Source: Actinomycetota bacterium
GTDB taxonomy: Bacteria > Actinomycetota > Acidimicrobiia > Acidimicrobiales > Ilumatobacteraceae
DNA length: 64,000 nucleotides
Reading direction: 5' to 3'
Assembly: GCA_016870775.1 (NCBI GenBank)
Contig: VGAK01000003.1
Coordinates: 1 to 64,000 of the forward strand
Shown here: positions 53,938 through 62,523 of the stretch, piece by piece
Layout of the letters: every line of letters starts with the position of its first letter
How positions within the stretch are numbered: position 1 is the stretch's first letter
The notes under the pieces: model-generated
What the model was told of the DNA's origin: nothing
Database searches by the model: none
What the model saw: only the letters and a program-made list of their open reading frames with translations
Program-made: the position numbers and the translations under genes

Positions 53938-55136
53938 GTGAACGCGACGATGAACCCGCCGAGATCAATCTCGACGATGTCTCCGATGATGTGCGGGAGG
54001 AGTTGGCGCGCCTCTTCGGTGCCGGCGGGACGGCACCGGAGGGATCCGGGATCACCGTTGAGGAGGGATCGGCGCCCGCCGTGCCGGTGGAGACCGATGC
54101 GCCGGCCCGGCGCGTGGAGGCCGACCTGATCACACCGACCGACCTCGTCCCGACCGGTCCCGGGGCTTCCACGCCGGTCAGAGACCGACCGATCGTGCCG
54201 ATCGGGGACCTCTCGGCCGACTCGGTGGTTCCGCTGCCGATTGATCCGCTCGTGCCGGTGCACGCGGGTGGGGGCGTGATCCAGATCGTCGATGACGGCA
54301 CGATGCCCGAGGTGCGCGATGTGGGCGAGGTGAGCCGCGTGCTGATCGTGGACGATGACCAACCGGCTGGCCGGGTCGCCGATCGGGACTCCCAGCGCTC
54401 GGGGCGTCGTGCCAGGCGCGCCAAGACCGTTGGGCGGGGCCGCGGGCGCGTCGGATGGTTGCGACTCGGAGCGATCGGCACCGTGGCGTTCACCGTGGTC
54501 GCCGCCCTGCTCGCATCACCGATCTTTGCGATCCGCACCGTGGTCTTCGACGGCACCGTGTACACCGACGCCTCCACGATCGAGGACGTGCGCGGGATGC
54601 TCGACGGGTCGTCGGTGTTCACGGCCGATGTCGATCTCGCACGCCAGCGGATGCTCCAGGATCCGTGGGTGGCCGAGGTGCGCATCACCACCGACTTCCC
54701 CGGTCGCGCCGTCGTCGAGGTGGCGGAGCGCGGACCGGTCGTGTGGTACGCGGGCGACGACCAGAAAGCGCGCGTGATCGACGCGCGCGGGCACGTGATC
54801 GCGGTCCTCGAGGGATGGCCGACCAAGTACCTCCAGGTGAGGGGCACGGGGCCCTCGCTCGAGGCCGGGGCCACCACCGATGACGCGTACCGTGCCGCGG
54901 CCCAACTGGTCCTGGCCCTTCCCGATGAGATCGCCGAAAGGGCCGAGGCGCTCGATCTGTCCCCGGGAGGCGAGTTGTCGATGTTCTTGAAGGGCGGAAC
55001 GATCGTGAGGTTCGGTCCGCCCGAGGGACTGCAAGACAAGCTGGTCGCAGTGGTGGTCCTCCTGCGCCGCCAGGATCCGTCGACGCTGGCGGTGGTCGAC
55101 GTGTCCACCGGCGAACCCACGGTGCAGACCCGCTGA
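53934..55136 (+). CDS. ftsQ: Cell division protein FtsQ
   Basis: A 400-residue bitopic division protein. The cytoplasmic tail (~180 residues) is long, acidic and Pro-rich, with a basic patch ([15 protein letters not shown]) before the membrane segment [22 protein letters not shown]. Next comes a POTRA domain ([56 protein letters not shown]). It joins FtsL and FtsB at the divisome. GTG 53934 overlaps the murB stop. Confidence 0.92.
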
Positions 55137-55188
55137 CAGGTCGTGCGGGGGCCTCGGGCCCGATTCCGCGCAGTCGAACCGAGCAAAA

Positions 55189-55227
55189 GCAGCCCCGAAT
55201 TCGGGGCTGCACGTGGCCAATTGCCAC
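55189..55227. promoter_or_regulatory. Perfect palindrome plus second inverted repeat before ftsZ
   Basis: GCAGCCCCGAA/TTCGGGGCTGC (55189-55210) is a perfect 22-bp palindrome. GTGGC (55213-55217) and GCCAC (55223-55227) form a second repeat. On the minus strand the first ends in TTTTGC, like a terminator; on the plus strand no T tract follows. It could be a terminator for ftsQ, an attenuator, or a protein-binding site upstream of ftsZ (start 55297). Confidence 0.6.
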
Positions 55228-55296
55228 CAAATCAGCGCCCAGTGTGGAAACATTGACCCGTCGCGTTCATCGGCGCCCGAGCGGAGGTTTTGCCCC

Positions 55297-56391
55297 ATGG
55301 CCGGTTCACCACAGAATTACCTCGCCGTCATCAAGGTGATCGGCGTCGGTGGCGGCGGTGTGAACGCTGTCAACCGAATGATCGATGCGGGGCTGCGCGG
55401 GGTCGAGTTCGTGGCAATCAACACCGACGCCCAGGCACTCCTGATGAGCGACGCTGACGTCAAGCTCGACATCGGTCGCGAGCTCACGAAGGGCCTCGGG
55501 GCGGGCTCGGATCCGGAGGTCGGCAGGGCGGCTGCCGAGGCCCACCGGGACGAGATCGAGGAACTGATCCAGGGATCGGACATGGTCTTCATCACCGCCG
55601 GGGAGGGCGGCGGCACCGGCACCGGCGGCGCTCCGGTGATCGCTGAGATCGCGAAGTCGCTCGGCGCGCTCACGATCGGTGTCGTGACGAGACCGTTCCA
55701 GTTCGAGGGCCGTCGTCGAGCGGTGCAGGCCGACAACGGCATCCAACGCCTCAAGGAGAAGGTCGACACGTTGATCGTGATCCCGAACGACCGACTCCTC
55801 ACTGTCGCCAACGACAAGACGTCGCTGGTGAACGCCTTCAAGATGGCCGACGAGGTCCTGCTGCAGGGCGTCGCGGGAATCACCAACCTGATCACGACCC
55901 CGGGTCTCATCAACACCGACTTCGCCGACGTCAGGATGATCCTCACGAACGCGGGAACCGCCCTCATGGGCATCGGCGTCGCCTCCGGGGACAACCGGGC
56001 CGTCACCGCGGCCAAGGACGCGATCTCCAGCCCGATGCTCGAGGCCGCAATCGACGGCGCGCGGGGCATCCTGCTCAACATCACCGGCCCATCCAGCATG
56101 GGCCTCTTCGAGGTCAATGCCGCGGCCGAAGTGGTGCACGGGGTGGCGCACCAGGACTCGAACATCATCTTCGGCACCGTCATCGACGATGAGATGGGCG
56201 ACGAGATCAAGGTCACCGTCATCGCTGCGGGATTCGAGCGCTGGGATGGGGCGACCAATGCGACGTTCGGCACGCGGTCGTCGGGATCCAGGGATTCCCG
56301 CGGCTCATCCAACGTGCGCGACATCTTCGCCGAGACCGATCCCCTCGGAGACGATGACGACGACTTCGACGTGCCGTCGTTCCTGAGGTAG
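55297..56391 (+). CDS. ftsZ: Cell division GTPase FtsZ
   Basis: A 364-residue tubulin-like GTPase that forms the division ring. [29 protein letters not shown], the tubulin signature [20 protein letters not shown] (GGGTGTGG at 104-111) and the T7 region [16 protein letters not shown] are present. The acidic linker is short and ends in DFDVPSFLR, the C-terminal peptide that binds SepF and other partners. Ribosome site GGAGG at 55283-55287, spacing 9. Confidence 0.98.
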
Positions 56392-56422
56392 TCCGGTCCG
56401 GCCGGGCCGGGATGCACCGACG

Positions 56423-57073
56423 ATGACGATCGACCCTGACGCGGTGGCGTCGCGGATGTCGTTGGTTCGTGCGCGCGCCGCCGTCCTCGGTGCCCCCGAC
56501 GTGGCGGTGGTCGCGGTGACCAAGTCGTTCGGTCCGGAGGCGATCGCTGCCGCACACGCGACCGGCTGCGACGGGATGGGGGAGAATTACGCCCAGGAGT
56601 TGCTCGCGAAGGTGCCGTCGATTCCCGCGGAGCTTCCCGTGCACTTCATCGGGCGACTCCAATCGAACAAGGTGAAGTCGTTGTCGGGAATCGTCTCGGT
56701 CTGGGAGTCGGTCGATCGCCCCGGCCTGGTCGATGAGATTGCCAAGCGGGCGGGTCGTGGTGCGCGGGTGCTGCTCCAGGTGGACACCACGGGGGAGGCG
56801 TCCAAGGGTGGGTGCGCACCGGACCAACTGGACGGGCTGCTGGAGCGGGCCGGGAGAGCGGGGTTGTCGGTGGAGGGACTCATGACCGTGGGGCCCACGG
56901 GAGGCACCCGCAGCGAGTGTGCGGCTGCGTTCGGGCTCCTGCGGCGGCTGGCCGACCTGCGGGGACTCCGCGAATGCTCGATGGGGATGTCCGACGACTG
57001 GGAGATCGCACTCGCGGAGGGCGCCACCATCGTGAGGCTTGGTTCGGCGCTCTTCGGGGAGCGCCCCCGGTGA
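56423..57073 (+). CDS. yggS: YggS/PLPBP family pyridoxal-phosphate homeostasis protein
   Basis: A 216-residue alanine-racemase-like barrel without racemase partners. PLP-binding Lys34 in VAVTKSFG; NYAQELLAK, HFIGRLQSNKVKSL and SMGMSDDWEIALAEGATIVRLGSALFGERPR are family motifs. It buffers PLP and affects amino-acid balance. The usual neighbour yfiH/pgeF is missing. The last 31-36 bp with the stop codon are repeated three further times directly downstream. Confidence 0.93.
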   Translation: MTIDPDAVASRMSLVRARAAVLGAPDVAVVAVTKSFGPEAIAAAHATGCDGMGENYAQELLAKVPSIPAELPVHFIGRLQSNKVKSLSGIVSVWESVDRPGLVDEIAKRAGRGARVLLQVDTTGEASKGGCAPDQLDGLLERAGRAGLSVEGLMTVGPTGGTRSECAAAFGLLRRLADLRGLRECSMGMSDDWEIALAEGATIVRLGSALFGERPR

Positions 57074-57179
57074 GATGGTTCGGCGCTCTTCGGGGAGCGC
57101 CCCCGGTGAGATGGTTCGGCGCTCTTCGGGGAGCGCCCCCGGTGAGATGGTTCGGCGCTCTTCGGGGAGCGCCCCCGGT
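57041..57179. repeat. 36-bp tandem repeat of the yggS 3' end including its stop codon (~3.9 copies)
   Basis: Units begin at 57041, 57077, 57113 and 57149 and start GGTTCGGCGCTCTTCGGGG. Each holds the codons for GSALFGERPR then TGA, and the 36-bp period keeps the frame. The last copy lacks the TGAGAT end. Each unit can fold as GGCGCTC-TTCGGG-GAGCGCC, so the array is four potential hairpins in a row. Confidence 0.97.
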
Positions 57180-57191
57180 TGGGGCGCTCCC
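57165..57191 (+). terminator. Hairpin at the end of the tandem array
   Basis: GGGAGCGCCCC (57165-57175) pairs perfectly with GGGGCGCTCCC (57181-57191) around CGGTT. There is no T tract. It could end the ftsZ-yggS transcript before sepF, or be a by-product of the array. Confidence 0.5.
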
Positions 57192-57225
57192 ACATCGCAC
57201 AGAATCGCTGGGTTAGCCTGACGAC

Positions 57226-57744
57226 ATGTCGTTCTTCCGTCGCGCAATGGACTATCTCGGACTCAGTGGCGAGGAGTCCTATGACGACTACGACATGTCG
57301 GCCGAGTACGAGCGCCCGACGCGTGCTCCTCGGGGGTCGGACCCGCTCGCACGCCGAGGAACCGAGCCCGAGTACGGCTCCGAGGGAATCGGATCGCGCG
57401 GTCCACGCGTCGACGACACCGGCGCAGCGCGTCGCCCCGACGACTCGTCGGGCATCCAGGTGCGCCCGGTGGGCACCCCCCGCAACGCGCCATCGGTGCG
57501 CACGGTGGGCGCGTCGGGCGAGACGGTGACGGTTCGACCCCGTGACTTCAACCAGGCCAAGGAGATCGGTGACTGCTTCAAGGTCGGGGTGCCCGTGATC
57601 GTGAACCTCGAGGGCGCGGATCGCGAGATGTCGAGGCGCATCATCGATTTCGCGTCCGGGCTGTGCTACGCGCTCGGGGGCACGATGGAGAAGGTGGCCA
57701 CCGGCGTGTATCTCCTGAAGCCCGCCTTCGACGGCGACCGCTGA
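57226..57744 (+). CDS. sepF: Cell division protein SepF
   Basis: A 172-residue FtsZ membrane anchor. The amphipathic N-terminus MSFFRRAMDYLGLS is the membrane-targeting helix; an acidic and Arg/Pro-rich linker follows, then the SepF core TVRPRDFNQAKEIGDCFKVGVPVIVNLEG, RRIIDFASGLCYALGGTMEKVATGVYLLKP. It binds the FtsZ C-terminal peptide. Same order (ftsZ, yggS, sepF, yggT) as most actinobacteria. Confidence 0.95.
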   Translation: MSFFRRAMDYLGLSGEESYDDYDMSAEYERPTRAPRGSDPLARRGTEPEYGSEGIGSRGPRVDDTGAARRPDDSSGIQVRPVGTPRNAPSVRTVGASGETVTVRPRDFNQAKEIGDCFKVGVPVIVNLEGADREMSRRIIDFASGLCYALGGTMEKVATGVYLLKPAFDGDR

Positions 57745-57751
57745 GACGACC

Positions 57752-57994
57752 GTGGCACTCGTCTGTGCGATCCTGCAGATCTACACGTTGGTGATCGTGG
57801 CGCGCGCCATCGCGTCGTTCTTCCCGATCAACTCCTCGAGTCGCGCGGCGCCGATCGTCGGGCTGCTCCACCAGTTGACCGATCCGGTCTTCTTGCCGTT
57901 GAGGCGGGTGATACCGGCGGTCGGGATGCTCGACTTCACCCCGCTCGTGGTCATCATCGCGATCCAGATCATCGCGAGCGTCCTGGGCTGCTGA
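57752..57994 (+). CDS. yggT: YggT family membrane protein
   Basis: An 80-residue protein with two membrane segments (LVCAILQIYTLVIVARAIASFF, LVVIIAIQIIASVLG) around the conserved loop HQLTDPVFLPLRRVIPAVGMLDFTP, which is diagnostic. GTG 57752 is 7 bp past sepF. The family is linked to division and osmotic tolerance in several bacteria; its exact function is unclear. A DivIVA gene often follows in this order but is not here; ileS comes next. Confidence 0.92.
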   Translation: MALVCAILQIYTLVIVARAIASFFPINSSSRAAPIVGLLHQLTDPVFLPLRRVIPAVGMLDFTPLVVIIAIQIIASVLGC

Positions 57995-58032
57995 ACCCGC
58001 CCCCGACCGCGGCACACCCCTAGCCTTGTCCC

Positions 58033-61000
58033 GTGGCATATCCGGTCGTCGTTCCCCAACCGGACTTTCCCCGCCTCGAAGAGGCGGTTCTGCACCGATG
58101 GGCCGACGAGGACACCTTCGTGTCGTCGATCGAGGCACGGCCGGCCGGTGAGGCAGGGGCGAATGAATTCGTCTTCTACGACGGTCCACCGTTCGCCAAC
58201 GGTCTCCCTCACTACGGCCACCTCCTGACGGGTTTCGTCAAGGACGTGGTGCCCCGGTACCAGACGATGCGCGGCCGCAGGGTGGAGCGCCGCTTCGGCT
58301 GGGACTGCCACGGTCTCCCCGCCGAGGTCGAGACTGAGCGCGAACTCGGAATCGCGGGTCACCCCGAGATCGCCCGGTACGGGATCGACCGCTTCAACGA
58401 GGCGTGCCGCACCAGCGTGCTTCGCTACACCGACGAGTGGCGCAGGTATGTGACCCGTCAAGCGCGCTGGGTCGATTTCGAAAATGACTACAAGACCCTC
58501 GATGCGTCCTACATGGAGAGCGTCATGTGGGCCTTCAAGACGCTGTGGGACAAGGGCCTCATCTACGAGGGTTTCCGTGTCCTGGCGTACTGCTGGCGTT
58601 GCGAGACGCCGTTGTCGAACACCGAGACCCGCATGGACGACGTCTATCGCCTTCGGCAGGATCCGGCCCTGACCGTGGCGTTCGAGTTGGAGTCGGGCGA
58701 GAGGGTCCTCGCGTGGACCACTACACCATGGACACTGCCCTCGAACCTCGCGCTCGCGGTGAACCCCGAGGTCGACTATGCGGTCGTCCTCCATGCCGAC
58801 GGCCATCGGTACGTGATCGCCGAGGCGAGGCTCGGTGCGTACGAGCGCGAACTGGGATCGGCCGAGCGCGTCGGCACCCTCCGTGGGTCCGAGCTCGTGG
58901 GGCGCACCTATCGCCCGCTGATGCCCTACTTCGCCGGCACCGAGAACGCGTTTCGGATCCTGGCCGCCGACTTCGTGACGGTGGAGGACGGCACCGGCAT
59001 CGTGCACTTGGCCCCCGGCTTCGGTGAGGACGACCAGATCATCTGCAACGCAGCCGGCATTCCGACCCTGTGCCCGATGGACGAGCACGGTCGCTTCACC
59101 TCCGAGATCGTCGACTGGCAGGGCACGCACGTCTTCGATGCGAACCCAGAGGTGATCCGTCACCTCAAGGACCGCGGTGTCGTCGTGCGCCACGAGACCT
59201 ACGACCACCCGTACCCGCACTGTTGGCGGTGCAGCGAGCCGCTCGTGTACCGCGCGAACTCATCGTGGTTCGTGGAGGTGACGCGCTTCAAGGATCGGAT
59301 GGTCGAGCTCAACCAGCAGATCAACTGGGTTCCCTCTCACATCAGGGACGGCATGTTCGGCAAGTGGCTCGCGAACGCCCGCGATTGGTCCATCAGCCGC
59401 AACCGCTTCTGGGGCTCGCCCATCCCGGTGTGGAGGAGTGACGACCCGGCGCACCCGCGCATCGACGTCTACGGGAGCATCGAGGAATTGCGGCACGACT
59501 TCGGTGTGGAGGTGACCGACCTGCACCGACCCTCGATCGACGAACTCGTGCGGCCGAATCCCGACGATCCGACTGGCAACTCCATGATGCGGCGAGTGCC
59601 CGAGGTCCTCGATTGCTGGTTCGAGAGCGGGTCGATGCCCTTCGCGCAGGTTCACTATCCGTTCGAGAACAGGGAGTGGTTCGAGAGCCACTACCCGGGT
59701 GATTTCATCGTCGAGTACATCGCCCAGACGAGGGGTTGGTTCTACACGCTGCACGTTCTCGCCACGGCCCTCTTCGACCGGCCCGCGTTCACCAACTGCG
59801 TGAGCCATGGAGTCGTTCTCGGTGACGACGGTGCGAAAATGTCCAAGAGTCTCCGCAACTACCCCGATCCGATGGGGATCTTCGAATCACACGGCGCCGA
59901 TGCGATGCGGTGGTACCTGATGTCTTCGCCCATCCTGCGCGGCGGCGACTTCTCGGTGACCGAGCAGGGCATGCGCGAAACCGTGCGACAGGTGCTCCTA
60001 CCGATGTGGAACTCGTGGTACTTCCTGGCGCTGTATGCCAACGCCGAGTCCAAGCAGGGGAGGGTGCGCACCGACTCCACCGACGTGCTCGACCGGTACG
60101 TGCTGGCCAAGCTCCACCGGGCCGTCGGGGCCGTGACGGTGCAGATGGACGCCTACGACCTCTCGGGGGCGTGCGCGGAGATCCGTGCGTTCCTCGATGT
60201 GCTCACCAATTGGTACATCCGCAGGAGCCGCGACAGATTCTGGGCGGGCAATGACGACGCGATCGACACCCTGCACACGACGCTCTCGGTTCTCACGAGG
60301 CTCGTCGCGCCGCTGCTCCCGATGGTGGCCGACGAGATCCATCGCGGTCTCTCCCCCGATTCTCCGAGTGTCCATCTTCTCCCGTGGCCGACACCGGACG
60401 AGTTGCCCGTCGATGACGACCTCGTGACCGCGATGGACACGGTGCGCGACGCGTGTTCGGCGGCACTTTCTGTCCGAAAGGCCCACGGCAGGAGAGTGCG
60501 ACTTCCGCTCGCCTCGATGACCGTGGCGGCGCCCGGTGCCGAGCGCCTCGCGGACTTCGAGCAGATCATCGCCGAGGAGGTGAATGTGCGCGCCGTGCTC
60601 CTCACCTCCGATGTCGACTCCACGACGACACGGGAGCTGCTGGTGGTCCCGGCCGTGCTCGGGCCGAGGCTCGGTGCTCGGACACAGCAGGTCATCGCCG
60701 CGGTGAAGCGGGGTGAGTGGATGGAGTCCGATGGGGCAGTCGTGGCAGCAGGCGAACGCCTCGTGGAGGGCGAATATGCGCTGCGGCTCGTGGCACGGGA
60801 AGGAGACGCCAGCGCTCCGCTCGAGGCTGGGTCGGGCATCGTGCTCTTGGACGTCTCGATCACTGAGGATCTCGAGGCAGAAGGCACCGCTCGCGATGTG
60901 GTCCGGGCCGTGCAACAGGCGAGGCGCGATGCCAACCTGCGGGTCACCGACCGGATCACCTTGGTGATCTCGGCCGATGCGGAGGTGCGCCGACGGGTCG

Positions 61001-61230: not shown

Positions 61231-62523
61231 ATGGCATCAAAAAAGAAGGCTCCGGCCAAGAAGAAGCCGGTCAAGAAGAAGGCTCCGGCCAAGAAAAAGC
61301 CGGCCAAGAAGAAGGCTCCGGCCAAGAAGAAGCCGGCCAAGAAGAAGGCTCCGGCCAAGAAGAAGCCGGCCAAGAAGAAGCCGGCCAAGAAGAAGGCTCC
61401 GGCCAAGAAGAAGCCGGCCAAGAAGAAGGCTCCGGCCAAGAAGAAGCCCACACGGAAGGTGGCCAGCGCCTCCTCGGCGCAGAAGAAAGTCGCGGCGCAG
61501 AAGGCGCTCGCCAAAAAGAAAGTCGCGGCGCAGAAGGCGCTCGCCAAGAAGAAAGTCGCGGCGCAGAAGGCGCTCGCCAAGAAGAAGGCAGAGGCGCAGA
61601 AGAAAGTCGCGGCGCAGAAGAAAGTCGCGGCGCAGAAGGCGCTCGCCAAGAAAAAGGCTGCCGAGCGCGCGGCGGCACAAAGGAAGCGTGACACCGAGCG
61701 CAAGGAGCGCGAGCGAGCGCGGATCTCCGCAGCCAAGGAGAAGGAGCGTCTCCGCAGGGAAGCAGAGCGTGCCCGGGCAAAGATCGCCAAGGACAAGGCC
61801 GCTGCCAAGGCCAGGGCCGAGCGTGAGAAGGCTGCTGCCAAGGCCAGGGCCGAGCGTGAGAAGGCTGCTGCCAAGGCCAGGGCCGAGCGTGAGAAGGCCG
61901 CCGCCAAGGCCAAGGCAGAGCGCGAAAAAGCGCGTGCCGCCGCCAAGGCCGAGAAGGAGCGCCTCGCGGCCGAGAAACTCCGCGCCAAACTCGAATCTCT
62001 CGAACGCGCCGCCGCCGAGCGTGCCGCCGCCGAGGCTGCGGCACGACCACCGATGCCGCCGCCCCTTCCGCGCAAGCCCAAGCCCGAGCCCCCCAAACCA
62101 CCCACGATCATCAAGGGTGAGTCCCGTGATGGTGTCGTGTCGACCAAGGAGTTCGACCTGAAGTTCCTCCTCGGGCAGCGGGATCTCCTCGTCGAGGAGC
62201 GCGCGAAGTTGGTCGGTCAGGCCGACCGTCTCGAGAACGAAGCGAATTCCCTGATCGCCGATGCCGAGATGGGTGACGTGCAGTTCGACGACGAGGGTGG
62301 AGAGGGTGACACCATGGTGGTCGAGCGCGAGCAGGACCTGACACTGTCGGCCCAGGCCCGCCAGACAGTCGAGGAGATCGACGCTGCGATGGATCGTCTT
62401 CGTCGCGGTGAGTACGGCTACTCGCTGGTGTCGGGCATGCCCATCCCGCGCGAGCGCCTGAAGGCGATCCCGTGGGCGACCGAGCTCGTCACGGAACGAG
62501 CCGGCGGCGTCACCAGGTACTGA
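61231..62523 (+). CDS. DksA/TraR-like protein with long histone-like Lys/Ala tail
   Basis: A 430-residue protein. Residues 2-75 are repeats of [11 protein letters not shown], 83-142 of [11 protein letters not shown], 145-265 a charged coiled coil with [11 protein letters not shown] repeats, and 272-292 a Pro-rich hinge. The last ~125 residues are DksA/TraR-like: [43 protein letters not shown]. The four zinc cysteines are missing (YSLVSG for CxxCG, WATELV for the last pair). The tail recalls histone H1-like and HU-tail proteins, so DNA binding is probable. Location between ileS and lspA is typical of the actinobacterial TraR gene. Confidence 0.85.
61246..61920. repeat. Internal tandem repeats in the DksA-like gene
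   Basis: Three blocks: AAGAAGAAG with CCGGCC or GCTCCGGCC units (15/18 bp, higher-order 33 bp) at about 61246-61450; AAAGTCGCGGCGCAGAAG units at about 61486-61660; and three to four 33-bp GCCAAGGCCAGGGCCGAGCG units at about 61801-61920. Near-identity at the DNA level points to recent slippage or recombination, and to likely length variation. Confidence 0.9.

Follow-up and report, generated by a model that had tools for sequence, protein, structure and literature searches.

A tandem array over the yggS stop codon, upstream of a predicted sepF promoter, in an actinobacterial division gene cluster

The array and its setting

In the window (the 64,000-nucleotide stretch analysed here, positions 1 to 64,000 of contig VGAK01000003.1), Pfam matches identify a division cluster with the order ftsZ (PF00091 and PF12327), yggS (YggS-type Ala_racemase_N, PF01168), sepF (PF04472), and yggT (YGGT, PF02325); a tandem array lies between yggS and sepF, where an earlier note made from the sequence had placed it. 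The host genome (G000) is a 1.74-Mb assembly of 44 contigs that is 80% complete. The relatives matched by YggS include several labelled Ilumatobacteraceae, and the host likely belongs to this family; the YggS identity of the best relatives is 55–58%, and that of the nearest genus members is about 58% or lower. The features of the locus are as follows.

56423..57073, + strand: yggS, 216 aa, PLP-binding YggS/YlmE family (PF01168, E 1.3e-18; match in 96/100 relative genomes)
57071..57073, + strand: yggS stop codon TGA, with further in-frame copies at 57107-57109 and 57143-57145, none after copy 4
57046..57065, + strand: hairpin of the first unit, perfect 7-bp stem with loop TTCGGG; also at 57082-57101, 57118-57137, and 57154-57173
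57075..57221, + strand: open frame of 48 codons across the array, starting at an ATG one base past the yggS stop, (MVRRSSGSAPGE)x2-MVRRSSGSAPG-WGAPTSHRIAGLA
57165..57191, + strand: terminal stem, 11-bp perfect, 5-nt loop, tail ACATCGCACA, no U-tract
57188..57195, + strand: conserved TCCCACAT box in the predicted sepF promoter, at its -35 position, first four bases inside the terminal stem
57214..57219, + strand: TAGCCT, six bases ahead of the sepF ATG, the -10 hexamer of a promoter predicted to give a leaderless message
57226..57744, + strand: sepF (PF04472, E 5.7e-22)

The array consists of 3.9 copies of a 36-bp unit at 57040-57179 on the + strand, with 100% matches and no indels (TRF on the assembly sequence); the earlier note had described the four perfect copies correctly, with a start one base too late (57041). 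A repeat search places the starts of the copies 36, 36, and 36 bp apart, and the 32-nt cores of all four copies have no differences, so the array is recent. An exact match of at least 104 nt is expected by chance about 10^-50 times (64 kb, 90 periods), so chance is excluded. Copy 1 contains the last yggS codons and the stop codon. The earlier note read every unit as GSALFGERPR followed by a stop; GSALFGERPR is indeed in frame in all of them, copy 4 included, but the TGA is present in copies 1–3 only. In copy 4, GSALFGERPR is followed by TTGGGG instead of TGAGA, and the frame continues without a stop into TTGGGGCGCTCCC; the GAGA spacer is missing from this copy, which implies at least one event beyond plain slippage.

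The position of the stop codons has a consequence for copy number. If the array is cut exactly to one copy (a copy-number model), YggS is extended from 216 to 332 aa, because a single copy keeps just the stop-less junction of copy 4 and the yggS stop is lost; the array would thus seem to need at least two copies unless another stop arises. This bears on the reading that the copy number is a product of the assembly of a metagenome-assembled genome and that the real number of units is lower or higher. Short reads have difficulty with exact repeats of 104 nt, and the assembly is fragmented and incomplete (44 contigs, 80%); however, the junction GGTGAGATGG is unlike both flanks, so at least two copies should exist in the reads, and with one copy alone YggS would lose its normal stop and reach 332 aa. 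We consider an assembly product improbable.

The 36-mer search elsewhere that the earlier note had proposed finds a single locus in the host genome (80% complete) within three mismatches, and a dispersed element was rejected on this basis. The 20-nt core is present with up to two mismatches in 13 of 100 genomes, about chance given that the reversed control pattern is present in 10 of 100; it has no exact match in the viral_contigs search. Rfam gives no match to the array at the gathering score (the best, at 19.6 bits where 100 are needed, is sub-threshold and attributable to chance), and a known RNA family was rejected because only that sub-threshold match was found. The 48-codon frame through the array is probably fortuitous: it has no match in a Pfam search, and a small coupled peptide was rejected because, although the +1 frame is open, two of the three forward frames are.

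We scanned 112 of 113 yggS loci, the host's included, over a stretch reaching from 80 nt upstream of the stop codon to 200 nt downstream (L125, in which the C-terminus is missing, was left out); the set includes loci of other phyla, and some loci may represent one genome present in two collections. None of the 111 other loci has an array over the yggS stop codon, so the comparison of copy number in related genomes suggested in the earlier note found no second array. Eight loci besides the host's have a short exact tandem run at any position scanned. In two of these, from the same genus (L023 and L026), a 13-bp sequence is duplicated (two copies) in the spacer that separates the yggS stop from the sepF promoter, which indicates that this spacer tolerates duplication; in the other six, units of 9–15 bp are found elsewhere in the scanned stretch.

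Hairpins and the end of the upstream message

As the earlier note had seen, each of the four units contains a perfect 7-bp stem with a TTCG-containing loop, and an 11-bp perfect stem closes the array. A single unit hairpin is not more stable than its shuffles (z -0.91; 33 of 200 shuffles as good), the terminal stem folds better than its own (z -2.80; 4 of 200), and the array as a whole folds with z -5.06 (0 of 200), with adjacent units pairing together. A terminal 11-bp stem is expected by chance in the yggS–sepF gap with a probability of about 3e-4. The unit hairpin is formed by the codons of the conserved GSxLFGxR motif, and the fold of the real last ten yggS codons is matched by 2.7% of 3000 synonymous recodings. 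In relatives, this structure is mostly missing: the folding z of the yggS end has a mean of -0.37 in 69 relatives and is below -2 in three of them (host, -3.34), and a stem of at least 6 bp at the motif codons is found in 5 of 54 relative loci, a count that omits the 15 of 70 loci without a C-terminal motif match.

These hairpins could act in termination. A canonical intrinsic terminator was rejected: the GC-rich hairpin is present (the 11-bp stem at 57165-57191), but the U-tract is not, and a terminator scan of 55000-58500 finds no site on the + strand. The array does have the form of a U-less ('I-shaped') or clustered terminator, that is, hairpins near a stop codon without a U tail; such an element would end the ftsZ-yggS transcripts and insulate the sepF promoter. 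Its position is suitable, with the first hairpin past the yggS stop beginning 9 nt after it and the terminal stem reaching the box at the -35 position. At the ends of convergent genes in the host genome, a stem is found in 31 of 217 cases (14%, against 7% in mononucleotide shuffles) and a stem plus T-rich tail in just 2 of 217; the roughly twofold excess of stem-loops suggests that U-less hairpins may work there. Hairpin clusters and hairpins without U trails have been proposed as terminators, and the idea is described, with disputed support, in excerpts of PMC8355165, PMC12288462, and PMC5335608. A relative (G024, C2) also has multiplied hairpins, at L222:1486-1581, where a CCGCCC-TTCG-GGGCGG hairpin with a T-rich tail occurs in three tandem copies between genes and looks like a triplicated intrinsic terminator. 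Against this function, the yggS array has no U-tract, which the mycobacterial polymerase needed in vitro (Czyz 2014, as cited in excerpts of PMC5335608 and PMC12288462), and relatives keep the sepF promoter without keeping strong structure upstream of it. A functional multi-hairpin terminator therefore seems to us rather unlikely.

The hairpins could instead block 3' exonucleases or stop re-initiation, that is, serve as a 3'-end stabiliser or a structure of the ribosome-termination type behind yggS. The hairpin 9 nt past the stop and the ATG one base past it are the setting of a ribosome termination structure as outlined in an excerpt of PMC7518266; however, there is no conservation in the 69 relatives, and extra copies offer no obvious gain over one hairpin. 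We consider such a role improbable.

The predicted sepF promoter

The sequence between the array and sepF is conserved. Of 32 genus genomes, the host included, 31 have the hexamer TANNNT 4–9 nt ahead of the sepF start codon (the missing locus, L014, has no sepF match). In 26 of the 31, again including the host, CCCAC precedes this -10 element by exactly 20 nt, counted from the end of CCCAC, even where it lies under an overlapping yggS frame. In a sample of 703 upstream regions from the host genome, TANNNT peaks 6–9 nt before the start (51, 46, 21, and 14 occurrences; about 1–5 at each other position), and 112 of the 703 genes have SD-like motifs. TANNNT about 12 bp before the start is a sign of leaderless genes and a common signal in Actinobacteria, according to an excerpt of PMC3160421; this, the peak, and the conserved spacing together identify TAGCCT at 57214-57219 as the predicted sepF -10 element, and the sepF message most likely starts at its ATG. 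The 118 aligned promoters of the host genome have no visible general -35 consensus, so the TCCCACAT box is a feature particular to the sepF promoter; TCCCACAT-N14-24-TAGCCT occurs once in the host genome. Nearby, ileS also looks leaderless, with TAGCCT six bases before its GTG start (58021-58033).

By this prediction the array is outside the sepF message and abuts the upstream edge of the conserved promoter. The hairpins would then belong to the 3' end of (ftsZ-)yggS transcripts and not to a sepF leader, because the predicted promoter is located between the array and the ATG. An attenuator in the sepF leader would have to lie in the sepF transcript ahead of the start codon; the conserved promoter-like element downstream of the array speaks against this, but that promoter is a predicted one, and read-through transcripts may occur. 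The earlier note had proposed a multi-hairpin terminator or RNA stabiliser that tunes sepF against ftsZ. The tuning is weakened by the conserved promoter that sepF has of its own; the terminator or stabiliser part, which lacks a U-tract and has neither strong structure nor an array in relatives to support it, persists in the narrower form of a possible U-less terminator or 3' protector. Judged from sequence, just two routes to sepF are left to the array: it could stop read-through from ftsZ-yggS, or it could act at the DNA level. In the latter case, the terminal palindrome would act over the -35-position box as an operator or cruciform. The stem (57165-57191) and the box (57188-57195) overlap by four bases; however, relatives have the box without the palindrome, and the shared bases are the ancestral TCCC. 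We consider a DNA-level effect on sepF extremely improbable.

Gene-end arrays, growth of the yggS array, and known systems

The survey, for exact arrays only, covered nine genomes with 2,561,052 bases in total, of which 774,230 belong to the host; genes were called by a codon-usage script instead of a standard gene finder, and two stretches of N in G024 were dropped. Thirty-six arrays are inside genes, nineteen touch no called gene, nine lie over a stop codon, and one lies over a start codon; some of the nineteen are probably uncalled coding sequence (e.g., G000 C1:92279-93052 and C15:13335 have at least three open frames). The bias of 9 to 1 (sign test, p 0.011) fits tolerance, since units added past the first stop do not alter the protein, whereas copies over a start codon would shift a promoter that has to stand six bases from it. 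The nine stop-codon arrays come from three of the nine genomes (G000, three; G007, four; G031, two), and the yggS array is one of several such gene-end minisatellites. The other two in the host are behind alanine dehydrogenase (a perfect 24-bp x 3.4 array at C1:44944-45025, L159:4944-5025, with a unit of TAG plus a CCGGC-CCTC-GCCGG hairpin) and behind a Cys/Met-type PLP enzyme (a 24-bp x 3.9 array at C7:3303-3395, L148, between convergent genes, with units that supply TGA for one gene and, on the opposite strand, the stop for the other). One in G007, 33 bp x 3.5, is behind a GlfT2-like gene (L194:9622-9738).

Two candidate rules for these arrays were dropped. A hairpin as their shared cause does not hold, because the best-rotation z is below -2 in only two of the nine units (yggS unit, -0.79). 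A period divisible by three, as expected from coding pressure, fits the first six arrays, but the next three have periods of 28, 17, and 22 (6/9, p 0.042).

Repeats of other kinds were also seen. In the window, 61243-61953 contains nested repeats of 15, 33, 48, and 81 bp within a 439-codon, Lys/Ala/Pro-rich frame; elsewhere in the host, a 21-bp x 5.2 array that is 98% identical (L150:7481-7589, C9) lies where no gene is called. In G050 (C1:1-200000, L208-L217), five intergenic arrays have 26–40-bp units with a core like CGGGTC(A/G)GGTGTC, which suggests that G050 has a family of dispersed repeats.

We conclude that the yggS array is probably a recent, near-neutral gene-end minisatellite that arose by slippage-type growth in tolerant sequence. 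Replication slippage or unequal recombination would have duplicated the last yggS codons and the stop into the gap before the sepF promoter; growth would be tolerated because copies behind the first stop leave YggS unaltered and the gap ends at the conserved promoter. In transcripts that carry yggS, and probably ftsZ with it, the array would be 3'-terminal, and weak U-less termination or 3'-end protection may follow as a by-product of the hairpins, so that the array would have at most a modest effect, if any, on the end of the upstream message. That slippage was the cause, that the array is near-neutral, and that it acts on RNA in any way are inferences from these patterns, and some of the patterns point the other way: slippage alone leaves the terminal 11-bp stem (about 3e-4) unexplained, and neutrality is challenged by this stem, by the better-than-usual fold of the yggS tail (2.7%), and by U-less stems being in excess at convergent gene ends. 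As the earlier note had expected, the copy number is likely prone to change.

A more ambitious version, which we rate as very improbable, is that gene-end hairpin minisatellites form an adjustable terminator system in the genus: slippage would set the number of U-less hairpins, and with it clonal read-through into sepF, above a two-copy floor that arises because the yggS stop is found only in the junctions between copies. If copy number altered sepF read-through, the array would serve this uncultured actinobacterium as a contingency-type switch for a core division gene. If it does no more than drift, it can be used as a strain marker, and it warns that repeats over stop codons can mislead assembly and the annotation of gene ends. 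Of more lasting use is the sepF promoter conserved in the genus, which fixes the probable start of the sepF message.

A literature search (titles and abstract starts) returned no description of stop-codon arrays of the yggS kind. Among known systems, the U-less or clustered hairpin terminators (PMC12288462, PMC5335608, PMC8355165) share with the array GC-rich hairpins soon past a stop codon and no U tail; unlike them, the array, here known from sequence alone, is non-conserved and made of identical, recent copies. The ribosome termination structure (excerpt of PMC7518266) likewise places a stable structure right behind the stop codon; however, sepF is predicted to be leaderless with its own promoter, so control of re-initiation would have no clear target. 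Mycobacterial interspersed repetitive units (MIRU; excerpt of PMC12548453) resemble the array as small in-frame repeats at an actinobacterial gene boundary with an internal ATG near the stop, but the array is built from its host gene, has no sign of mobility, and is at a stop instead of a start codon; a MIRU-type dispersed element was rejected because dispersal is lacking (one locus within three mismatches in G000, 80% complete). Bacterial intergenic minisatellites and VNTRs are also short, perfect tandem units in intergenic sequence with a number that is likely to change, and the head-to-tail, near-identical units that characterize them are found here (36 bp x 3.9, 100%). The yggS array, known from one assembly, differs from them in that its unit includes the gene's own stop codon; it is most likely an intergenic minisatellite.
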